Below are positions 38,058 to 54,619 of a DNA stretch of 64,000 nt, piece by piece; the stretch's first letter is position 1; every line of letters starts with the position of its first letter. A model generated the notes under the pieces. It did no database searches and had not been told where the DNA came from. It was given only the letters and a program-made list of their open reading frames with translations. The DNA is from Bolinopsis microptera (taxonomy: Eukaryota > Ctenophora > Tentaculata > Lobata > Bolinopsidae). The position numbers were made by a program, and so were the translations under genes. The stretch is from positions 8,597,726 to 8,661,725 of the forward strand of contig NC_087074.1 in assembly GCF_026151205.1 (NCBI RefSeq). The letters are read 5' to 3'.

Positions 38058-41000
38058 TCATTTCTGAGAGATATGGCTGCGTGAGCTGCGACTCCTAGCC
38101 ACACTTGACCTCATACTGGGAGCTAGAGAGTTACGGTTGTCTCCAGATGAGATAGAACCTCCTTGCATCATCCGGATCTGATTAACGATGCTTTGTCGCT
38201 TGTCACCTGAAAAATGTGCTTGTCATTTTCAGAAATAATAATGTGACATCGTATTAATTGCTGAAGAGTTAGCTACAATGCTCGAGCATGTCGAGAATTT
38301 AGCGGAAGAAAATTACCGGGATGATAAGGCCGGAGGGTGCTGGCACGCTGACGTTCTCTCACTTGACGTTCTTTGACAAACATCTCGTACTCCTCATCAA
38401 CGTCTTCTTCCGGCTTTTTTATTTTTATTTCTTCCTGCAAGTGACCTCCTTTTATTACTACATGCTATTAGCCGGTTAATTGTAAATGATATTATAATGA
38501 TCGAATATCGACGTTGTAACTGTAAATCATGTAATTAGTAATGAATTATGGAAGTTGGAGATAATTTGAGAGTTATCATGATAGTGGTATGGGATAATTT
38601 ACAGAAATGGTTTACAGAAATGATTTACCAGCAGAGTTCGCCAACTGTGTTTCTTGATAAACAACGTGAACAGAGTCCCAATGAAAAATACCATTATAAC
38701 ACTGAAGGTTGCAATACTCTGCCAGATGGACAGCGGAAGTCCGTGAACACATATCGTCAACTCCTCCTGTCGCAAATAAAGGGTTGTTAAGCTTGAAAAA
38801 GTTAAATTAAAGAAAATACCCGATCGCAGGCATTGAATCGATGAAAAATTAAAATAGTAGTGACCCCAGTCCCTCCATCGTCTTTTGTTCAACTAACGAG
38901 AATTAAAGAAATATAATTGTCATCGCAATAAAATATTAAAGTTTCTGTTTTACCTCGAATATACAGTAAGATTCGCTATCCGTGAACTCTAAGTTGCTGA
39001 ACTTAATCTTAAAACAGAAATTTGGAACACCCTCTGATGTTTTTGGGTATACGTTTGCGCATGGACTTCTTTCACGGCAAAGCCATTTAATCTGCAAAAA
39101 AACATATTATCGTTGAGTACAAGTGTTTTTCATTTTATATAGTGATATTAATCTGGATACAATGGGATTATTTTGGAACAACCTTGAAGTAGTATACAAT
39201 ATGGCCCCGCTGTATCACCTAAAAGTTAGGCACCATTTACCCAATTTCCTTATATGGTAATGTCACATAATCAATAATAATTTGTCGGCCGGGTGGTGTA
39301 GTGGTAACACAATTGCCTCCCAAGCAGAAGATCCAGGTTCGAATCCGGTCGAGAGCCAGTCGATCAGTTACCAAGCTATGATTTGGTATAGCTTCGGCTG
39401 GTTATATTCACTCTGTGACTGGTAGGACTAGCCCCCCCCCCCTACTGCTAGTATAGCGCTTACACACAGTGACTTAGGGTTACCGTAGGGGAGATTTTTA
39501 TCAGTGTAACGGTGAAATTATTATATTATTTAGATATCATAAATAAACTTTATGAGAAATAAGACAAACCGTTTGAAACTTAAAAAATCATACACATTTA
39601 AAAATACAATGTCAATCGTCAGCAATTTTCAGTACTTAAGACTTTGTACGATCATGTCACATTTCTTAACGACTGATTTCAATAAGGGAATATTCTCATT
39701 TATAAGTTTACAAAGGATAGAGTGACTTAGGGTGGGGGAGATTTTTATCAGTGTAATGATGAAATTAAATGAAATCAGCTGGCTACCATCAATCTAACCA
39801 GATTCAACTAATTAACTCAGCCTAAAACAATAGATGCAGCAATATTCCTCTATGCAACAAGATATTATTACATAACTGCAAATGGTTATGACAGTTACAA
39901 GAGTGTACAGTAGGTGAAAACATAACTGTGCAATGTACACGTCATAATTGTTATTAGGAAAGGCACCAAATTCATTGGTAACATGATACACCATAATAAC
40001 ATTGCAATATATGTTTGTAAATATCACTGTAATTGAATCAATTTGGGCCCCTCTGTGGCGTACACCTGTAATTATCAGACAGTTAATCGGAACATCCAGT
40101 GTTCAAATCTGTGTCAAGCTACTCTTACAAAACTCAAAAAAAAAGCAATCAAAATTTACTGTGATAAGGCTGATGTTGACGGCTCGGTTAGAGAGATCTT
40201 AGTCTATCTCCAGTGCCATGAGTCAGCTATATCGCAGTTCGGGGTTGACTCCCGTGAAAAACCGGAATTAGGAGAGCGTTCTCTCCATCCAAATGTATGT
40301 GGGAACTCCCACTAAATTGAGAAATGTAAGATGTAGTAGGCAGTGATCAATATAAAGATATAGGCGAATTCGAACCCGGCTTACAATCTAATAGCCTTGC
40401 ACTGCAGTATGACCATTAATCTAACTGAGTAATGTAAGATGCATGTAGTTTGAACTAGTACCAAGTCAATTGCAAATGTTAAGCACTGTCAGTAATTGAG
40501 CGAGCTTTTTTTAATAATTTGTTTATAGGATAATTATTGTTCGTCAATTGCATACATTTTGTTATAGTACAAAATTCTGATTCAAGTACAAAATCCTGAT
40601 TTACACTTGACACTTTCAGTAATAGTAGATTTTTCTAAAGTGGGCTATATAAGGGGAGTGAGACCTTCGTAAGCTCATTACTCAAACTGCACTTTTCGTT
40701 ACGTTTGATTTTACATGCTCTCCCTGCGATTTTGATGTGATCAAGTACAAAATCCTGATTTACACTTGATCTTTTCAGTAATAGTTGATTTTTCTGAAGT
40801 CGGCTATATAAGGGGAGTGAGACCTTCATCAGCTCATTTCTCAAACTGCACTTTTCGTTACGTTTGATTTTACCTGCTCTCTTTGCTGTTTTTGAACCGG
40901 TCAAGGACAAAATCCTGATTTACACTTGATCTTTTCAGTAATAGTTGATTTTTCTGAAGTCGGCTATATAAGGGGAGTGAGACCTTCATCAGCTCATTTC

Positions 41001-44000
41001 TCAAACTGCACTTTTCGTTACGTTTGATTTTACCTGCTCTCTTTGCTGTTTTTGAACTGGTCAAGGACAAAATCCTGATTTACACTTGATCTTTTCAGTA
41101 ATAGTTGATTTTTCTGCAATCGGCTATATAAGGGGAGTGAGACCTTCATCAGCTCATTTCTCAAACTGCATTTTTCGTTACGTTTGATTTTCTGTGCTCT
41201 CGACAGAAATGAAGAGAAGATTTTCAGCAAAAAGCCAACATGGCAAACATCAAGTTGAAGAGTGTCCGGTATGTTTCAAGAGGATGAGGGCTGATAATCT
41301 AAAACATCATCTTCCGACACACAACAGCAAAGAAACCTGCAACAGCTGTAAAAAGTTGTTTCGCTCGGACAAATTAGCAAGGCATGAGCTTCTGTGTCGC
41401 TCTCAGATCGATGAATCTTTATGCAATCGCTTCTCTGGGATTCATGAACATCTGGACAATGATGAGCACTGTAGTTCAGTTTCGGGGTACTTTAAGTCCT
41501 TTGATCTCAGCATTGCGAAAAGTTCAGATTATGATACAATTCTTTTGGAGTCATGCTCTGCAGCTAAGCAAAAGATTATCCAAATTTTACAGTCACATCC
41601 TGTTAAAGCACAGCTAGTCATTTCCCTATCATTCCACAAGCATGTCAATGGAGAAGAGGGACAATCTGAAAAGGTTTTCAGGTCAATTTGTGAACCCTTG
41701 CTACTAGGAGACAATGTTGATGACTTTCTGTCACGTGCTAAGAGCTATATTCGGCATGGAATTGACACCTACGAACGATTGGGAAGTGGTTGGATTTTTG
41801 ACGAATTGCAATGGGCACATATCGAAATTGCAAAATACTCTCCACTTTCTGCTTCAGGCAACGTTTCCATTCCGGAGAAGCTAAGTAAAATGAGATCAGT
41901 TCTAAACATTAAGTCCTCAGACAATAAATGCTTCTTGTATTGCCTTTTGGCAAAGCTCTATCCTGCAACAGGCTCCAATATTGATAGACACACAAAGTAT
42001 CTGTCTCACATCGGGAAGATAAATATGGGTACGGTTCAATTCCCAGTAAAGATCAAAGATATAGCAAAAGTTGAGGAGTTGAATAAGGTCTCAATTTCTG
42101 TTTTCCAGTGGTGTGTTGAGGAAGAATGTGTTTTGCCGTTAAAACATGGCAGTGAAATTGGCGAACCAGTTGACCTACTCTACTTGGAAAATGAAGGATT
42201 TGCTCATTATTTACTGATCAAAGATTTTAACGCATTCATGAGACATCGCACTAAGCATCATCACACGATGTTTTACTGCCGAAAATGTATGCATGGTTTT
42301 GTATCTTCACAGAACCATGAGACTCACTACCAAAACTGTAAACAAGGAATTAATCAGTTAGTCAAGATGCCGGATCCAGGAGTCATTGAGTTTAAGGCAT
42401 TACATAAGCAAGACAAAAAACTGTTTACAGTTTACTTTGATTTTGAATGTCTAACTGTACCTTACAGTACCTGCAGTAAAAAAGATACCTCGAGTTACAC
42501 AGAGAAGTATCAAAAACATGTACCTTGCAGCTTTTGCATCGTTACTGTGTCAGAGTTTTCGGAATATAACTCGGAAGTGGTCACTTTTAGCCACGAAAAT
42601 CCAAATGTTGTGACTGAAGAATTCATATCACAGCTTTCTAACATACATGATAAAATGATGAAATGCTATGAAAAGAACCAACATCAATAGATATGACGCC
42701 CGAGGATGAAAAGAAGTTTAAGAGTGCAACAATCTGTCACATTTGTAACAGAAAATTGAACTGGGAATCTGAAAAAAATTACCCAGTTCGAGATCATGAC
42801 CACTTGCAGAAAAAGAATAACTTCAGAGGTGCAGCATGCAATTCCTGCAACATAAACTATTTCAACAGAACTAAAAAAGTTCCAGCATTTGCACATAACC
42901 TAAAAGGATATGATCTCAACCTCTTCCTACTAGATTTGACAAAACGAGTCGAGAGATTGGATGTAATCCCTGAGACACTTGAAAAGTTCAAAGCTGTTTT
43001 TACTGACAACTTTATTTTCTTGGACAGCTTTGCATTTCTTTCTACTTCCCTTGATAGATTGGCATCAAATATGAAAAAGTCAGGTGTCGAAAAGTTCAAG
43101 CAATTAAAAGAAGAGTTCCCAGAAAACTACGAACTTTTGTCAGAAAAAGGCGTATATTTCTATGACTATGCTTCATCTTTCTCAGTTTTCTCGGAGAAGA
43201 ACCTACCACCCAAGCAAGCGTTTTACAGTAAACTGAGGGAAGAAGACATCTCAGATGCTGACTACACTCGAGCTCAAGATGTCTACAAAACCATGAACTG
43301 TCAATCTTTGCTCGATTACATGGAGATTTATGTAAAAACAGATGCTCTCATATTATGTGATGTATTTGAGAGTTTTAGAAAACTTTGCTTGGACTACTAT
43401 GGCCTAGACTGTTGTCACTATATGAGTTTGCCAGGATTTTCTTGGGATGCGATGCTGAAGATGACAAATGTGAATATCGAGTACATGACTGACATTGACA
43501 TGTACACCTTCATTGAGAAGAATCTGCGAGGAGGAGTCACTACGGTTAACCATCGTCATTTCAAAGCCAACAACCCTTATTTGGACGACCATGACACAAC
43601 AAAGCCTACATCATTCATCCATTATGTGGATGCAAATAACCTTTATGGAAAGTCAATGTCGTACAAGTTGCCATATAAGAATTTTAGATGGCTAGACAGG
43701 GATGAAATAGATCTACTTGACACTTCCAAGATAGACCCAGAAGGGGAAACATGCTATATTTTGGAAATTGATCTGCACTATCCAGCGTTTCTTCATGACT
43801 ACCACAATGATTACCCCCTCGCTGTGGAGAGCAAAATGATTGAAGAACATCAATTATCACCCTTCAACAAAAAGTTTCTGGAACTACACAGTGAAAAGTT
43901 TAAGGCCTCACGCAAACTTGTTCCTGATTTGAAAGATAAGAAACATTTCGTATGCTCCCTGAAAACCCTCCAGTTATGCGTCAACAAAGGGCTTGAAGTT

Positions 44001-47000
44001 GAAAAGATTCATCGGGTTTTAGCCGCAGACCAAACAGATTTTGTGACTCCGTACATTGAATTCAACTCCACAAAAAGACAAAATGCACAATCGGATTTTG
44101 AGAAAGACTTCTTTAAGCTTGCCAATAACTCCATTTACGGAAAGTTTATTGAAAGTCTCAGAAATCGCACAAATGTTGAGATAGTGAAAGATCAAAAATC
44201 TGCAAAACGTCTTACTTCTAAACCACAGTTCATTGGTTTTCACATGCTGGATGACCAAACAACTGTTGTACAATCAGTAAAACGCAATTTAGTCCTGAAC
44301 AAACCCATAGCTTGTGGATTTATTGTATTGGAAAATGCGAAAAACATCATGGGGGAGTTCTGGTATGATGTTCTCAAACCAAAATATGGAAACGACATCA
44401 AACTTATCCTTAGTGATACCGACAGCTTCATCTATGGTGTTTTCACCAGGGATGGATATGAAGATTTGTACAGAATGCGGAACCTAATGGATTTGTCTGG
44501 CTATCTAAACGGTACACCGCTGGCAAGATTTCATGACCCTGCAAACAAAAAGGTTCCAGGGAAGTTCTCTGATGAAAAGCCGACTGAAATAATCAGCGAA
44601 GTTATTGCATTAAAGCCTAAAATGTACTCGGTCGTAACCAAAAAGCTGTTGTTCAAGTGTGAAAAAGCTCATGATTGCACATCATCTTGTTCCATCGGTC
44701 ATTCGGTGACTGCAAAAGGGATCGCTAAAACAGCCCAAAGAAAGATCCGCCACGAAGACTATAGAAGAGTTTTGAACACTCAATGCACTACAATAACAAA
44801 GTCTCAAACAATTCGCACTTTTGGCAATAAAATTTATAGTATTGTTGTGCAAAAGCGTGGACTATCAGGATTCGACGACAAAAAGTTTATATTAGACGAT
44901 GGAATCAGTACATTAAGTTATGGACATAAACAACTATTTAAAAATTGATTTTCTGATTTAGAACATTTGATTTGATTTGTTTTTTCATGTCTGATTACGG
45001 AAAAATGTAATGATTAATTCAAATATTTTTGATACTGACTTTTTGAATCTTGATAACATTACCAATTGTTGTAACAAATTTTCATTTGTCACATTTTTGA
45101 ATTTATGTGTCTTGATTGTATTCCAAATTACTTATAATCGCCTAATCAAATCAGTAGAACCATAAAAATCATGAATAAATTACAATAGAATTTGTAATAA
45201 TAAATTTTTTTTTAAATTTCAAAAACGATATGATACATAATGATATAAAAACTAAATAATGATGCCTTAAATGATATGCAATGATATCTGAAATGATACA
45301 TGATGATACATAATGATACATAATGATACATAATGATACATAATGATACATAATGATACATAATGATACATAATGATACATAATGATACATAATGATACA
45401 TAATGATACATAATGATACATAATGATACATAATGATACATAATGATACATAATTTTACACAATGATATCTAAAATGATACATAATGATACATAATGATA
45501 CATAATGATATCTAAAATGATACATAATGTAACATAATGATATCTAAAATGATACATAATGATTAATGATACATAATTATATCTAAAAATGATATCTTTA
45601 AAATGATATCTAAAATGATACACAATGATACATAATGATATCTAAAATGATACATAATGATACATAATGATACATAATGTTACATAATGATACATAATGA
45701 TACATAATGATATCTAAAATGATAATGATACATAATGATATCTAAAATGATACCCAATAATACTTAATGATATCTAAAATGATACCCAATAATACTTAAT
45801 GATATCTAAAATGATACATAATGATACATAATGTTATCTAAAATGGTACCCAATGTTATCTAAAATGATACCCAATGATATCTAAAATGATACATAATGA
45901 TACATAATGATATCTAAAATGATACATAATGATACATAATGATACATAATGATATCTAAAATGATACACAATGATACATAATGATATCTAAAATGATACA
46001 CAATGATACATAATGATATCTAAAATGATACATAATGATACACAATGATATCTAAAATGATACAAAATGATACAAAAATTATACATAATGATACATAATG
46101 ATATCTAAAATGATACATAATGATACATAATGATACATAATGATATCTAAAATGATATCTAAAATGATACATAATGATACATAATGATACATAATGATAT
46201 CTGAAATGATACATAATGATACATAATGATATCTAAAATGATATCTAAAATGATATCTAAAATGATATCTAAAATGATATCTAAAATGATACACAATGAT
46301 ACATAATGATATCTAAAATGATATAATGATAGCTGAAATGATATAATGATAACTAAAATGATACATATGATATATAATGATACTCTCCGTCTGACTAGTT
46401 GATGTAGAATTTGACTTTATTCCCCTTCTCCTGTCTGGTGCGTTCCCCACTGGGAAGTATTCCTACATGATGCAGCGTCAGCTGTATATTGCTTCATTAT
46501 ATGATTGCAAAAAGTTACATCTAAAAATTGAAATTTCCAAAATTGTGTATAAATACAATAGAATCAGCATCATTTCCACTTTGTGCCCCTAGCATACGCA
46601 TCAATTTTGCTGCTCTGACACTTTAATTGGAATCATCATGAGCAATTTCTGTGAATTATGCGATAAAACATTTGCTAGTTCACGCAGTCTAGCCAGTCAT
46701 CGATATAGCTTCCATCGTAAGAATGACATCTATGAGAATAAAAATGTGTCTGATGATGAGACCATTACAACAAACAACTCTGGAAACAAGAATGATCAGA
46801 AACACGAGATGAACTCCTTATCGAAGACAGGTAATTTAATTCAATAGATTCGAAGTTTTAAAAACAACATGAAAATCTGAAAATAATGTTACACTGTCAA
46901 GCTGTTTAATATTGTTTTTTACACCCTATGCAATCTTGCAATACAAAATTCAGGTGATAGTATGGACGATGAATATCCTACCGACACTGATGATAGCATG

Positions 47001-50000
47001 GATGAAGATAAAGATGATGATTCTACAAAGGATTACTCAAGTGACAATGAATCAATAAATGAAGACAATGACCTCAATGAAAGTACAGACGATGAAAGTT
47101 CCTCATATAGTAGCAATGATCATCCACGTGTAAAGCGCAGACGAAAATGACAAGACTTAAAGCTGGCTCTAATATGCTAACCAAGACTCTGCGGTCAATT
47201 GAGAAACATTTAAAGAACCAAGCCTGCCAAGAGGATGACTGCTTTGATCTTTTTTCAAGTTATGAATTGAAGACTGATTTTTTCGTGATGCTAGATAATT
47301 ACTTTCAAACACGTGGATTACAGTTGGATTCTATATTATCAAACAAAGAACAATTAATTTTCAATCTTGTACTAAAAACTGATAATCTCTTAATCCTTTG
47401 TAAACTTATAAATGAGAATATTCCCTTATTGAAATCAGTCGTTAAGAAATGTGACATGATCGTACAAAGTCTTAAGTACTGAAAATTGCTGACGATTGAC
47501 ATTGTATTTTTAAATGTGTATGATTTTTTAAGTTTCAAACGGTTTGTCTTATTTCTCATAAAGTTTATTTATGATATCTAAATAATATAATAATTTCACC
47601 GTTACACTGATAAAAATCTCCCCTACGGTAACCCTAAGTCACTGTGTGTAAGCGCTATACTAGCAGTAGGGGGGGGGGGGCTAGTCCTACCAGTCACAGA
47701 GTGAATATAACCAGCCGAAGCTATACCAAATCATAGCTTGGTAACTGATCGACTGGCTCTCGACCGGATTCGAACCTGGATCTTCTGCTTGGGAGGCAAT
47801 TGTGTTACCACTACACCACCCGGCCGACAAATTATTATTGATTATGTGACATTACCATATAAGGAAATTGGGTAAATGGTGCCTAACTTTTAGGTGATAC
47901 AGCGGGGCCATATTGTATACTACTCCTTGAAGCTGAAATAAATCTATTAAACCTGTTTAAATGAATCTTTCCATGTCCAAACGCTAGTCGCACCTCCATT
48001 CTTATTGAACTTTTCCAACTCTCCTTCACTGATGGAATCAATTATCATCATTATTGCATCTTAGCATCTTCAGAGACCGGCTTTAATTATATGCAAGTCT
48101 ACCATGAAGATAGAAATATAACATGAATATTAGGAAAAAGTGTTAACTTACTCCCACATTTCGATCTGTTCGACAGTGGTACCTGACCCCAAGATCGTCA
48201 GAGTATAGTTCCCCAAGTATGGGATATCACCACCGGAAACTAAATCATGAATACTGAATTTAGGATGAAAGTCCTGGTCATATTGTAGCCGTATAATCTC
48301 ACTCGTTGTACTGACAAGGAGGTTTGGTGTGTCCACTTGGCTCAAGGAAACTTTCTGATCTAGAAAAGGGTGGTTGACGTTGAAATGTTTAAAAATAATT
48401 AAATTAGATTCAAGGGTAATTATTTTTAGACAAAAAATATGAAATGAACTGAAGCGTAGACTCACATGGTTTACAACCGAGCATTATATGGAACGGAGCC
48501 AACGTACAGGCCTGACTGGGAAACACCGCTATACTCACAGGCACTATCTTTTCACCTGCATTCCGAATAGTTTCAAATTGTTATTTTAAAATAAAAATTT
48601 GGACATATAATCTGTTCTTTATCGTACCATATGCCTTCGTATAAATCATGCGAATATTCATTTCAACTTGGACAGACCACAAGTAAATTGTAAAATATAG
48701 GTTGGGCCAGGATTGACCGCGCAACGTAAGCACAGCAAAGCATGACAAAGCAACTCCATACACTACAACCGTTTTGAAGAATACAATATGCCAGCGTTAC
48801 TCCTGAGTCCTGCAGAATGCAGGCGGCAGGCCCAATATTGAGAATAAATTCGCTGTCAAACCTGGCTCGGCTCTATTAGCTTTCCCAATATCCGTGATAT
48901 GAATGGTATACAAGACTTTCAAGGTACGATAATCAACTTCCTTGTCGGAGCTGATTTCCAGAAAGGTTCCATTCCAGACATTCAAGCTAACGTGCGACTC
49001 TGCAATCAAATAGTCTGAAACAAATATCTTGATTTTACTCAAAGTGATAGCCATTTAAAATTCTAAAAAACTGTAAATCAAAATCATGATGAAAGTTATT
49101 CTAATTATGAATCACCAATTGTCAGATGATTAAACTCATAAAGTTGTTTTAAACAGACTCAAATATCGGAGCTCTACCTAAATCAGAGATGTTTGGAGAT
49201 GACAAGGAAAATGTGAACTCCAAGTTGTAAGATTCGCCATTCTGAAGGTAGACCTTTTCAGGGATCATGTTATGAACCAGCACCTCCTGAAAAAGCAATA
49301 ATATGTAATATTGTACGTCTTATAATCATAATGTTTTAGATACGGCGATGGATAAATTGTTGAAGCTTTCCACGTCATGTGAATGGAATTATACCAAAAC
49401 TTTACATGGAGATTAGAGCTATTTATATATCATGATTATAATAATTTGTAGTACATTTGAAACGTATATCAATAATAATTGTAAGCCCTAGCATAGTATT
49501 AGTCATTGGCGAAAATGGACGTGGTCCCTGAACAGAGAACACCTGGTACGCGTACAATGTACCCGGTGGCCGGTACGTACGGGAGGCGAGAGTGTCGTTC
49601 AGTGACCAATGACCAAAATGGACGTTTTCGGGAACATTTTAGGACACGTGGTCCTAAATGGTGATCGTTTTTCTCAAAAAATTAAAAATGAGTGTTACTG
49701 CAGTAGCATTAGATGGCAGTTCACTATGTCAGCAGCTCCTAAAAATTAAAGGTCCAAGCGATAACACTGTATCAGGCACGTAGCCAGGATTTTTCTTTGG
49801 GTGGGGCTGTCGGCGAGCGAAGCGAGCAAGCTGTGGCAGGGGTCTGACGGCTGCAGGGGTCTGGCATTAAAGAAATTTGTAGGACAGCAATAAACTGGGA
49901 TTGAAAAGAATCAAGTACTCACGTAAATTTGGTAACTTCACAACAGCAATCTGCATTCTCCAATCAGACTTTAAGACTTACTCAAGCCTCATCGTCTTAA

Positions 50001-53446: not shown

Positions 53447-54619
53447 GTCTGGTCAGTTATGGATATTTACCTGCATTTCATAGTAGAGGGCTGAAAATTT
53501 TTTTGGGGGCTCTCAAAGGTCTTAAGAACCGAAAAAACTTCGGAGCCCTAAAATTCAGACTGGGAGATTCGCCCATTTGGCCACGCCCATTTTTGGTACC
53601 AAAATGTCCAGGCGCAATCTGAGTGAAATATATATAATGTCATTCCTAACATGTTAGGGGTCTAAATCTATGTATTTTTGCACGACGTGGTGCAAAAATA
53701 AAAAAACACTACATTTTTCCGTGTTTCAATTGATATCGATCATTTTGAGCCAATAAAAAATTTTCAATTGTTTTGGTAATAAGCTAATTGGTAATTATCC
53801 AATTGGCTGATTGTCCAACGTAAAAAGTTTTCTAACAAAGGTTTTTCTCCTTGATGATATAAACATCCTCGATTAATTTGCAACCTTCTACGACGTTCAC
53901 AACTAAAGATATTTGGCAAACCAGAAAGGTGGTAAGAACTAAGAAGGTGGTAAAAAGTGGTAAAAGGTGGTGTTGCCGTGAGATAAAAATTGGGGACAAG
54001 TCTAAATATATTCGTAGGGGTCCTAACTACCACATTCCGTTGCTAAATCCTTATTGCCTTTCAAATCCAACGGATTTCACCCTATTCAATTTTTAACATT
54101 TTTGAACCAATTCTGATTTCAAAATTGGGACAAATAAAACACGATTTCTTCATTTTTCCACTAAATAGAAGTGTTTTAGGGCTTGAATTTTCTTCCCAAT
54201 CAACTCGTCGTGCAAAATGCATGGGTTTAGACACCTAACATGTCAGGAAATCGATTTTGAACGATTTTTATCATTCGTGACTGAAAAATTTGGCGCGTAA
54301 AATACTATTTATTCAGTTTTTTGCAAAAAATAAGTGTTTTAGAGCTTTAAGAACCTTGCCAATCGATTCGTCGTGCAAAAATACATAGATTTAGACCCCT
54401 AACATGTTAGGAATGACATTATATATATTTCACTCAGATTGCGCCTGGACATTTTGGTACCAAAAATGGGCGTGGCCAAATGGGCAATTTTCCCAGTCTG
54501 AATTTTAGGGCTCCGAAGTTTTTTCGGTTCTAAAGAACTTTGAGAACCCCCAAAAAAATTTTCAGCCCTCTACTATGAAATGCAGATTTTGATCTGATTT
54601 TGTCCATAACTGACCAGAC
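53447..54619. mobile_element. 1,173-bp foldback transposon with about 245-bp TIRs, TA TSD
   Basis: Left TIR 53447-53687 and right TIR 54369-54619 are about 95% alike, beginning GTCTGGTCAGTTATGGA. TA dinucleotides flank both ends (53445-53446 and 54620-54621), in an AT repeat. The centre holds two diverged internal repeats with CCTAACATGTTAGG and GTCGTGCAAAA motifs. There is no transposase. A TA duplication suggests Tc1/mariner-type mobilisation, though inside an AT repeat this is weak evidence. Confidence 0.85.

Follow-up and report, generated by a model that had tools for sequence, protein, structure and literature searches.

A two-gene Polinton derivative in the ctenophore Bolinopsis microptera, probably dependent on an integrase in trans, and its palindromic sister family

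How is a Polinton-like element copied and inserted if it carries a DNA polymerase gene and no recognisable integrase? The question is raised by a 64,000-nt stretch of the Bolinopsis microptera genome (the window), in which an original prediction, made from the letters alone, placed a polymerase-only Polinton-like element at 39182..47930. We read this element together with its relatives in the same genome, 13 elements in all: five of family A, to which the window copy belongs, seven of a sister family B, and one of a more distant family C. Unprefixed coordinates are positions in the window; C1 to C13 and the like denote contigs of the same genome. We consider it probable that the window element belongs to a two-gene, self-replicating Polinton derivative that depends on an integrase from elsewhere, and that its sister lineage became bipartite through fold-back replication.

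A mobile family with two genes

The element proper occupies 39188-47924 (8,737 bp) and has AGTAG...CTACT tips (AG...CT); the span first proposed counts in both CCTTGA duplicates. On the + strand it runs TIR (terminal inverted repeat), tandem promoter-like repeats, PolB, gene Z, TIR:

39182..39187: target-site duplication CCTTGA, left copy
39188..39718, + strand: left TIR, 531 bp, tip AGTAGTATACAATATGGCCCC
39281..39495, + strand: dispersed repeat within the left TIR, from a TIR search of the genome
40122..40336, + strand: block sharing about 80% identity with part of the family-B palindromes; also a short conserved frame
40571..41209, + strand: four 160-bp units in tandem, every unit having CTATATAAG and, downstream, a conserved block
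41209..42690, + strand: PolB, N-terminal part; FDFE at 42436, a putative terminal-protein region and a weak match to a C2HC zinc finger; the frame breaks close to its end
42693..44948, + strand: PolB, C-terminal part; endonuclease VII-like HNH at 42789-42851, exonuclease/palm motifs at 43329, 43623, 44115 and 44412
45225..46366: about 1.1 kb of tandem repeats with a unit of about 10 bp, varying among copies
46638..46830, + strand: gene Z, predicted exon 1, with a C2H2-type motif (MSNFCELCDKTFASSRSLASHRYSFH)
46831-46953: gene Z, predicted GT-AG intron, 123 nt
46954..47482, + strand: gene Z, predicted exon 2, first half acidic
47393..47924, - strand: right TIR, 532 bp, containing the same dispersed repeat at about 47616-47831
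47925..47930: target-site duplication CCTTGA, right copy

The duplication, the AG termini, the TIRs and the completeness of the ends were thus as predicted. Searching the genome with the TIR, the check for other copies of about 8.7 kb that the prediction had called for, recovered four further full-length copies of family A, giving five of 8.2-9.4 kb, all monomers:

C7:1.34 Mb: 8,993 bp, duplication ATATTA
C1:15.2 Mb: 9,416 bp, duplication CTCTGA
C3:11.7 Mb: 8,174 bp, duplication GACACG
C9:2.28 Mb: 8,611 bp, duplication GTAGAC

The flanks of the window copy match none of the flanks of the other four, and family A is further represented by a fragment at C4:0.996 Mb and a single tip at C9:9.07 Mb. 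AG...CT tips and a 6-bp target duplication are hallmarks of Polintons; together with TIRs they are present in 12 of the 13 elements, the family-C copy having TIRs and tips without a clean duplication. In families A and B the duplication is exact in every one of the 12 elements and different in each, which is beyond chance, since two random 6-mers of the window agree at a frequency of only 0.00035. Five full-length copies with duplications of their own rule out a deletion derivative unique to this locus.

The original prediction took the near-identical TIRs as a sign of recent mobility, for which they are weak evidence. The window pair differs by a single gap and no mismatch, and TIR-to-TIR identity is 96.8-99.8% in four copies and 100% over 162 nt in the C9 copy, where one TIR is mostly deleted. 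Both TIRs of the other four copies contain the same dispersed repeat, which occurs at 29 further places at 80-83% identity (best 40 of 210 candidates scored) and, judged by eye, resembles a tRNA-derived short interspersed nuclear element. Its presence in both arms indicates that one TIR was overwritten with a copy of its partner, so TIR identity is no clock. The window copy is in fact decayed, with both of its genes broken.

The window PolB frame is interrupted once, leaving 498 and 751 aa; the full 1,253-aa frame is open in three of the five family-A copies, and the sequence is under constraint. Its motifs are FDFE, YVKTD, DANNLYG, KLANNSIYGK, SDTDS and KMY. PF03175 was not listed for the two window halves by hmmscan, even at E 1; it scored above cut-off in two other family-A copies, in family B and in family C, and with these motifs the call of a protein-primed PolB stands. 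The predicted fold of the 751-aa half has a mean pLDDT (predicted local distance difference test) of 86 and a pTM (predicted template modelling score) of 0.80. A protein search with this half gave 69 matches in the genome (best 60 of 203 candidates scored). Among 120 PolB relatives listed, out of 3,066, the closest named one comes from Mnemiopsis leidyi, at 63%; other records reach 92%.

The element is not polymerase-only, a description ruled out by gene Z, a zinc-finger gene downstream of PolB throughout family A. Z is predicted to be spliced, and its exon 2 frame, broken in the window copy, is open in the other four. The same two-gene content recurs in family C, whose PolB is 58% identical to that of family A. 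The break in PolB, gene Z and the repeat inside both TIRs were all additional to what had been predicted.

Upstream of PolB, the four 160-bp units of family A carry TATATAAG and may be tandem core promoters. In a family-B element on C7 the corresponding region (C7:6700013-6701201, upstream of PolB) has nine TATAAA units at a spacing of about 147 bp, and a GCTCATT...CTCAAACT block downstream of the units is common to both.

The missing integrase and a candidate helper

At 8.2-9.4 kb the family-A monomers are, as predicted, about half the usual size, Polintons typically measuring 15-25 kb (PMC6431247). No integrase, ATPase or capsid frame was seen in the window element, again as predicted. The same held more widely: none of the 150 rve matches scored, of 394 genome candidates, lies inside the 13 elements, and reading their open frames revealed none suitable for an integrase. 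Beyond PolB and Z, this reading yielded no suitably sized frame except for some short, conserved ones (about 140 aa) and simple-repeat or repeat-derived frames. It likewise gave no candidate for capsid proteins (by open frames alone, with no fold-level or intron-aware search), nor for a parvovirus-type capsid or a superfamily 3 helicase. ATPase and protease had no Pfam match in the four window open reading frames (ORFs) scanned, and the other 12 elements were judged for them by open frames only. A genome-wide Pox_A32 search returned no matches and is uninformative, since it also missed an ATPase-like frame in the resident Polinton described below.

The original prediction had proposed that larger copies with the same TIRs and an integrase would identify a helper. 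We looked for these with a 35-nt pattern of the tip type, AGTAGTAT, allowing up to 3 mismatches. The pattern gave 25 matches, all exact, and its reversal gave none. These comprise nine family-A ends (one end of the C1 copy differs from the pattern), the 14 ends of the seven family-B elements, the C4 fragment and the single end at C9:9.07 Mb. Twenty-three belong to elements that we read and that lack an integrase; no larger, integrase-bearing copy was found through the 25 matches, the end at C9:9.07 Mb being unread.

An integrase is encoded elsewhere in the genome. At C1:345-355 kb (345501-355500), where an rve match lies 6 kb from a PolB, an open frame contains an RVE integrase core (5.8e-13) and a chromodomain (1.1e-11). 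The locus also holds a PolB in pieces, with an endonuclease VII-like domain, a frame resembling an ATPase (Adeno_IVa2, 0.0017, short of the cut-off) and, adjoining the integrase, a zinc-finger frame, for which the protein database has 98 relatives at E <= 0.001. No capsid was identified at this locus; its left end was not recognised within the 4.2 kb fetched beyond it, and its right side lies outside the sequence fetched. By its gene content it is probably a resident classical Polinton, which makes integrase activity in trans conceivable, and its integrase may act on the tips described here.

Two other explanations have to be weighed at this point. The first is that these elements are a non-autonomous family that arose from an ordinary Polinton by internal deletion, in which PolB and Z survived while the same-ended parent with integrase and capsid was lost or is missing from the assembly. 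The Polinton-type PolB, ends and duplication would fit such an origin, as would the zinc-finger ORF beside the resident integrase and the unread tip on C9. Against it, families A and C, for all the divergence of their PolBs, are both two-gene, and in family B the two genes sit on different elements; repeated chance deletion would not be expected to spare the same pair. PolB is moreover constrained, and the tip matches revealed no such parent. We regard this origin as unlikely.

The second is that PolB itself integrates the element, its endonuclease VII-like HNH nicking the target, so that a helper integrase would be unnecessary. All 13 of 13 aligned relatives have the HNH residues D, H, H and N unchanged, and the window copy retains an intact motif. 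The same domain is found, however, in a PolB piece of the probable classical Polinton with its integrase frame, so that another role for it, such as resolving branched or hairpin DNA, is likely, and 6-bp duplications of the Polinton type are usually ascribed to RVE integrases. Integration by PolB therefore seems improbable to us, and we continue to favour an integrase supplied in trans.

A sister family of palindromes

Family B has a PolB 80% identical to that of family A and related tips. Its matches in the PolB search, at 84-85%, came as back-to-back pairs, which self-comparison resolved into inverted duplications. There are seven such elements, of 7.7-15.3 kb, one of them shortened on one arm:

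C7:6690411-6705670: PolB palindrome, self-inverted across the whole 15,260 bp at 99.5%
C9:662254-674315: PolB palindrome, arms 5.9 kb, unpaired centre 303 bp
C9:6594451-6608817: PolB palindrome, arms 7.05 kb, unpaired centre 259 bp
C13:13624197-13632401: PolB element, second arm cut back to about 2.3 kb (identity 99.6% over 2,088 bp, falling to about 90% in the outermost 166 bp)
C5:18059736-18070047 (18.06 Mb): Z palindrome, one arm with an additional sequence of about 2.9 kb
C11:6783760-6791428 (6.78 Mb): Z palindrome
C12:15.10 Mb: Z palindrome, one Z arm broken

Four elements carry PolB, three carry Z and none carries both; in particular, no mixed palindrome combining a PolB arm with a Z arm was found among the seven. 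The Z palindromes have a Z frame of 308-316 aa, stop to stop, in both arms and no PolB, and a search for Z in the C7 palindrome, to which the remaining PolB elements align, gave no significant match. All seven are flanked by 6-bp duplications (TACTTG, GACGTC, CTTGTT, TCTTAG, ATTATA, GACAAC and CTGACC). Adjoining the C13 element is an inverted paralogous copy of its flanks that lacks the element and has TCTTAG once, which identifies it as an empty site.

The two kinds of palindrome share an outer tip of 47 to about 200 bp and 1.4-2.4 kb of inner sequence lying toward the same axis, about which the C7 and C12 palindromes are symmetric. On C11, Z stands behind tandem repeats at the place of PolB; in the palindromes on C5 and C12 the cassette with Z has the opposite orientation. 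In four palindromes (both on C9, C5 and C11) the unpaired centres are of similar size, 259-303 bp, and at different positions. The PolB arms differ within an element at 1, 3 and 1 of 3783 nt and between elements at 3-38: copying either produces matching arms or maintains the match.

A distant PolB lineage, at C8:6279874-6285893, also has inverted arms, with 784 of 784 aligned nt identical (800 compared) and its genes facing inward.

Mirror-image sequences can arise in libraries or assemblies, and family B might in truth be monomeric. The C7 and C12 palindromes are indeed self-inverted through the centre without a spacer, as a mirrored read would give. An artefact of this kind would not account for distinct 6-bp duplications exactly at both outer tips of all seven elements, for arms that differ at some bases, or for central junctions that vary among elements; in the same assembly all five full-length family-A copies are monomeric, and the C8 lineage has inverted arms as well. 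We consider an artefact very improbable.

A proposed mechanism and comparison with known systems

In the scheme that we favour, PolB would start copying at the AGTAG tips and produce a linear extrachromosomal form. The protein primer probably lies in the N-terminal 400-500 residues of PolB, a location proposed for Polintons and bidnaviruses (PMC4061559). Z may assist at the DNA as a zinc-finger binding partner. Insertion of the linear form, which creates the 6-bp duplication, would fall to an RVE integrase supplied in trans, with a resident classical Polinton as the most likely source. In family B, a replicating strand that folded back, or a lost end healed by self-copying, would have duplicated each arm. 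The resulting palindromes would have an origin at both outer ends, with each arm bearing a single gene, either PolB or Z, and would still be inserted as units. Alternatively, two hypothetical PolB-Z molecules may have crossed over through the shared inner inverted repeat, giving PolB-PolB and Z-Z products. Going further, it is possible, though we would not presume it, that family B is a bipartite palindromic transposon: integrase and capsid lost, PolB-PolB and Z-Z segments replicating and inserting independently while complementing each other in trans, and the two joined by shared ends, inner sequence and arm homogenisation.

Polintons (Mavericks) have the same protein-primed PolB, TIRs, tips and 6-bp duplication, and the resident one shares the endonuclease VII-like domain; their RVE integrase, ATPase, protease and capsid were not found in the 13 elements read. 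An RVE integrase has been called universal for Mavericks and the polinton-like virus BS_13 (PMC10328495), and major and minor capsid proteins are regarded as a Polinton feature (PMC4028283). Against this view of Polintons as capsid-bearing, self-synthesising elements, two families with PolB, one partner gene and exact 6-bp duplications point to a satellite-helper relation among eukaryotic self-synthesising transposons. In the family-B palindromes, fold-back replication by a protein-primed polymerase seems to have left a natural record of itself, and the family may represent a segmented transposon.

The division of PolB and Z between two kinds of family-B element has a resemblance to the genome of bidnaviruses such as Bombyx mori bidensovirus, which have a Polinton-derived PolB with an N-terminal extension, TIRs and two segments with conserved termini (PMC4061559). 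Bidnaviruses, however, have capsid and helicase genes of their own and free segments, whereas the elements here, in which no capsid gene was seen, are integrated DNA, and their putative segments are palindromes. Snap-back subgenomes of adeno-associated virus also form two mirror-image classes, each with a different half of the gene set (PMC8235507); those are defective particles, whereas the palindromes here are chromosomal, with insertion marks of their own and a common inner sequence and axis. The polinton-like viruses of Oxyrrhis marina resemble our elements in bearing PolB with no RVE integrase detected, but carry a tyrosine recombinase, GIY-YIG, major capsid protein and ATPase, and target duplications were not detected in them (PMC12721341). 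The IMG/VR contig IMGVR_UViG_3300007522_001028 encodes a broadly similar PolB (34% identity), with no integrase in the 6 of 12 ORFs scanned, but differs in having a phospholipase A2 domain, a weak AAA-type P-loop protein and several further ORFs. Among the papers listed from the open-licence literature, judged by titles and abstract openings, we recognised no report of an integrase-free ctenophore Polinton or of a palindromic or two-segment Polinton.

Elsewhere in the window, a 217-nt inverted repeat (97%) has arms at 53471-53687 and 54369-54585, with 681 nt between them.
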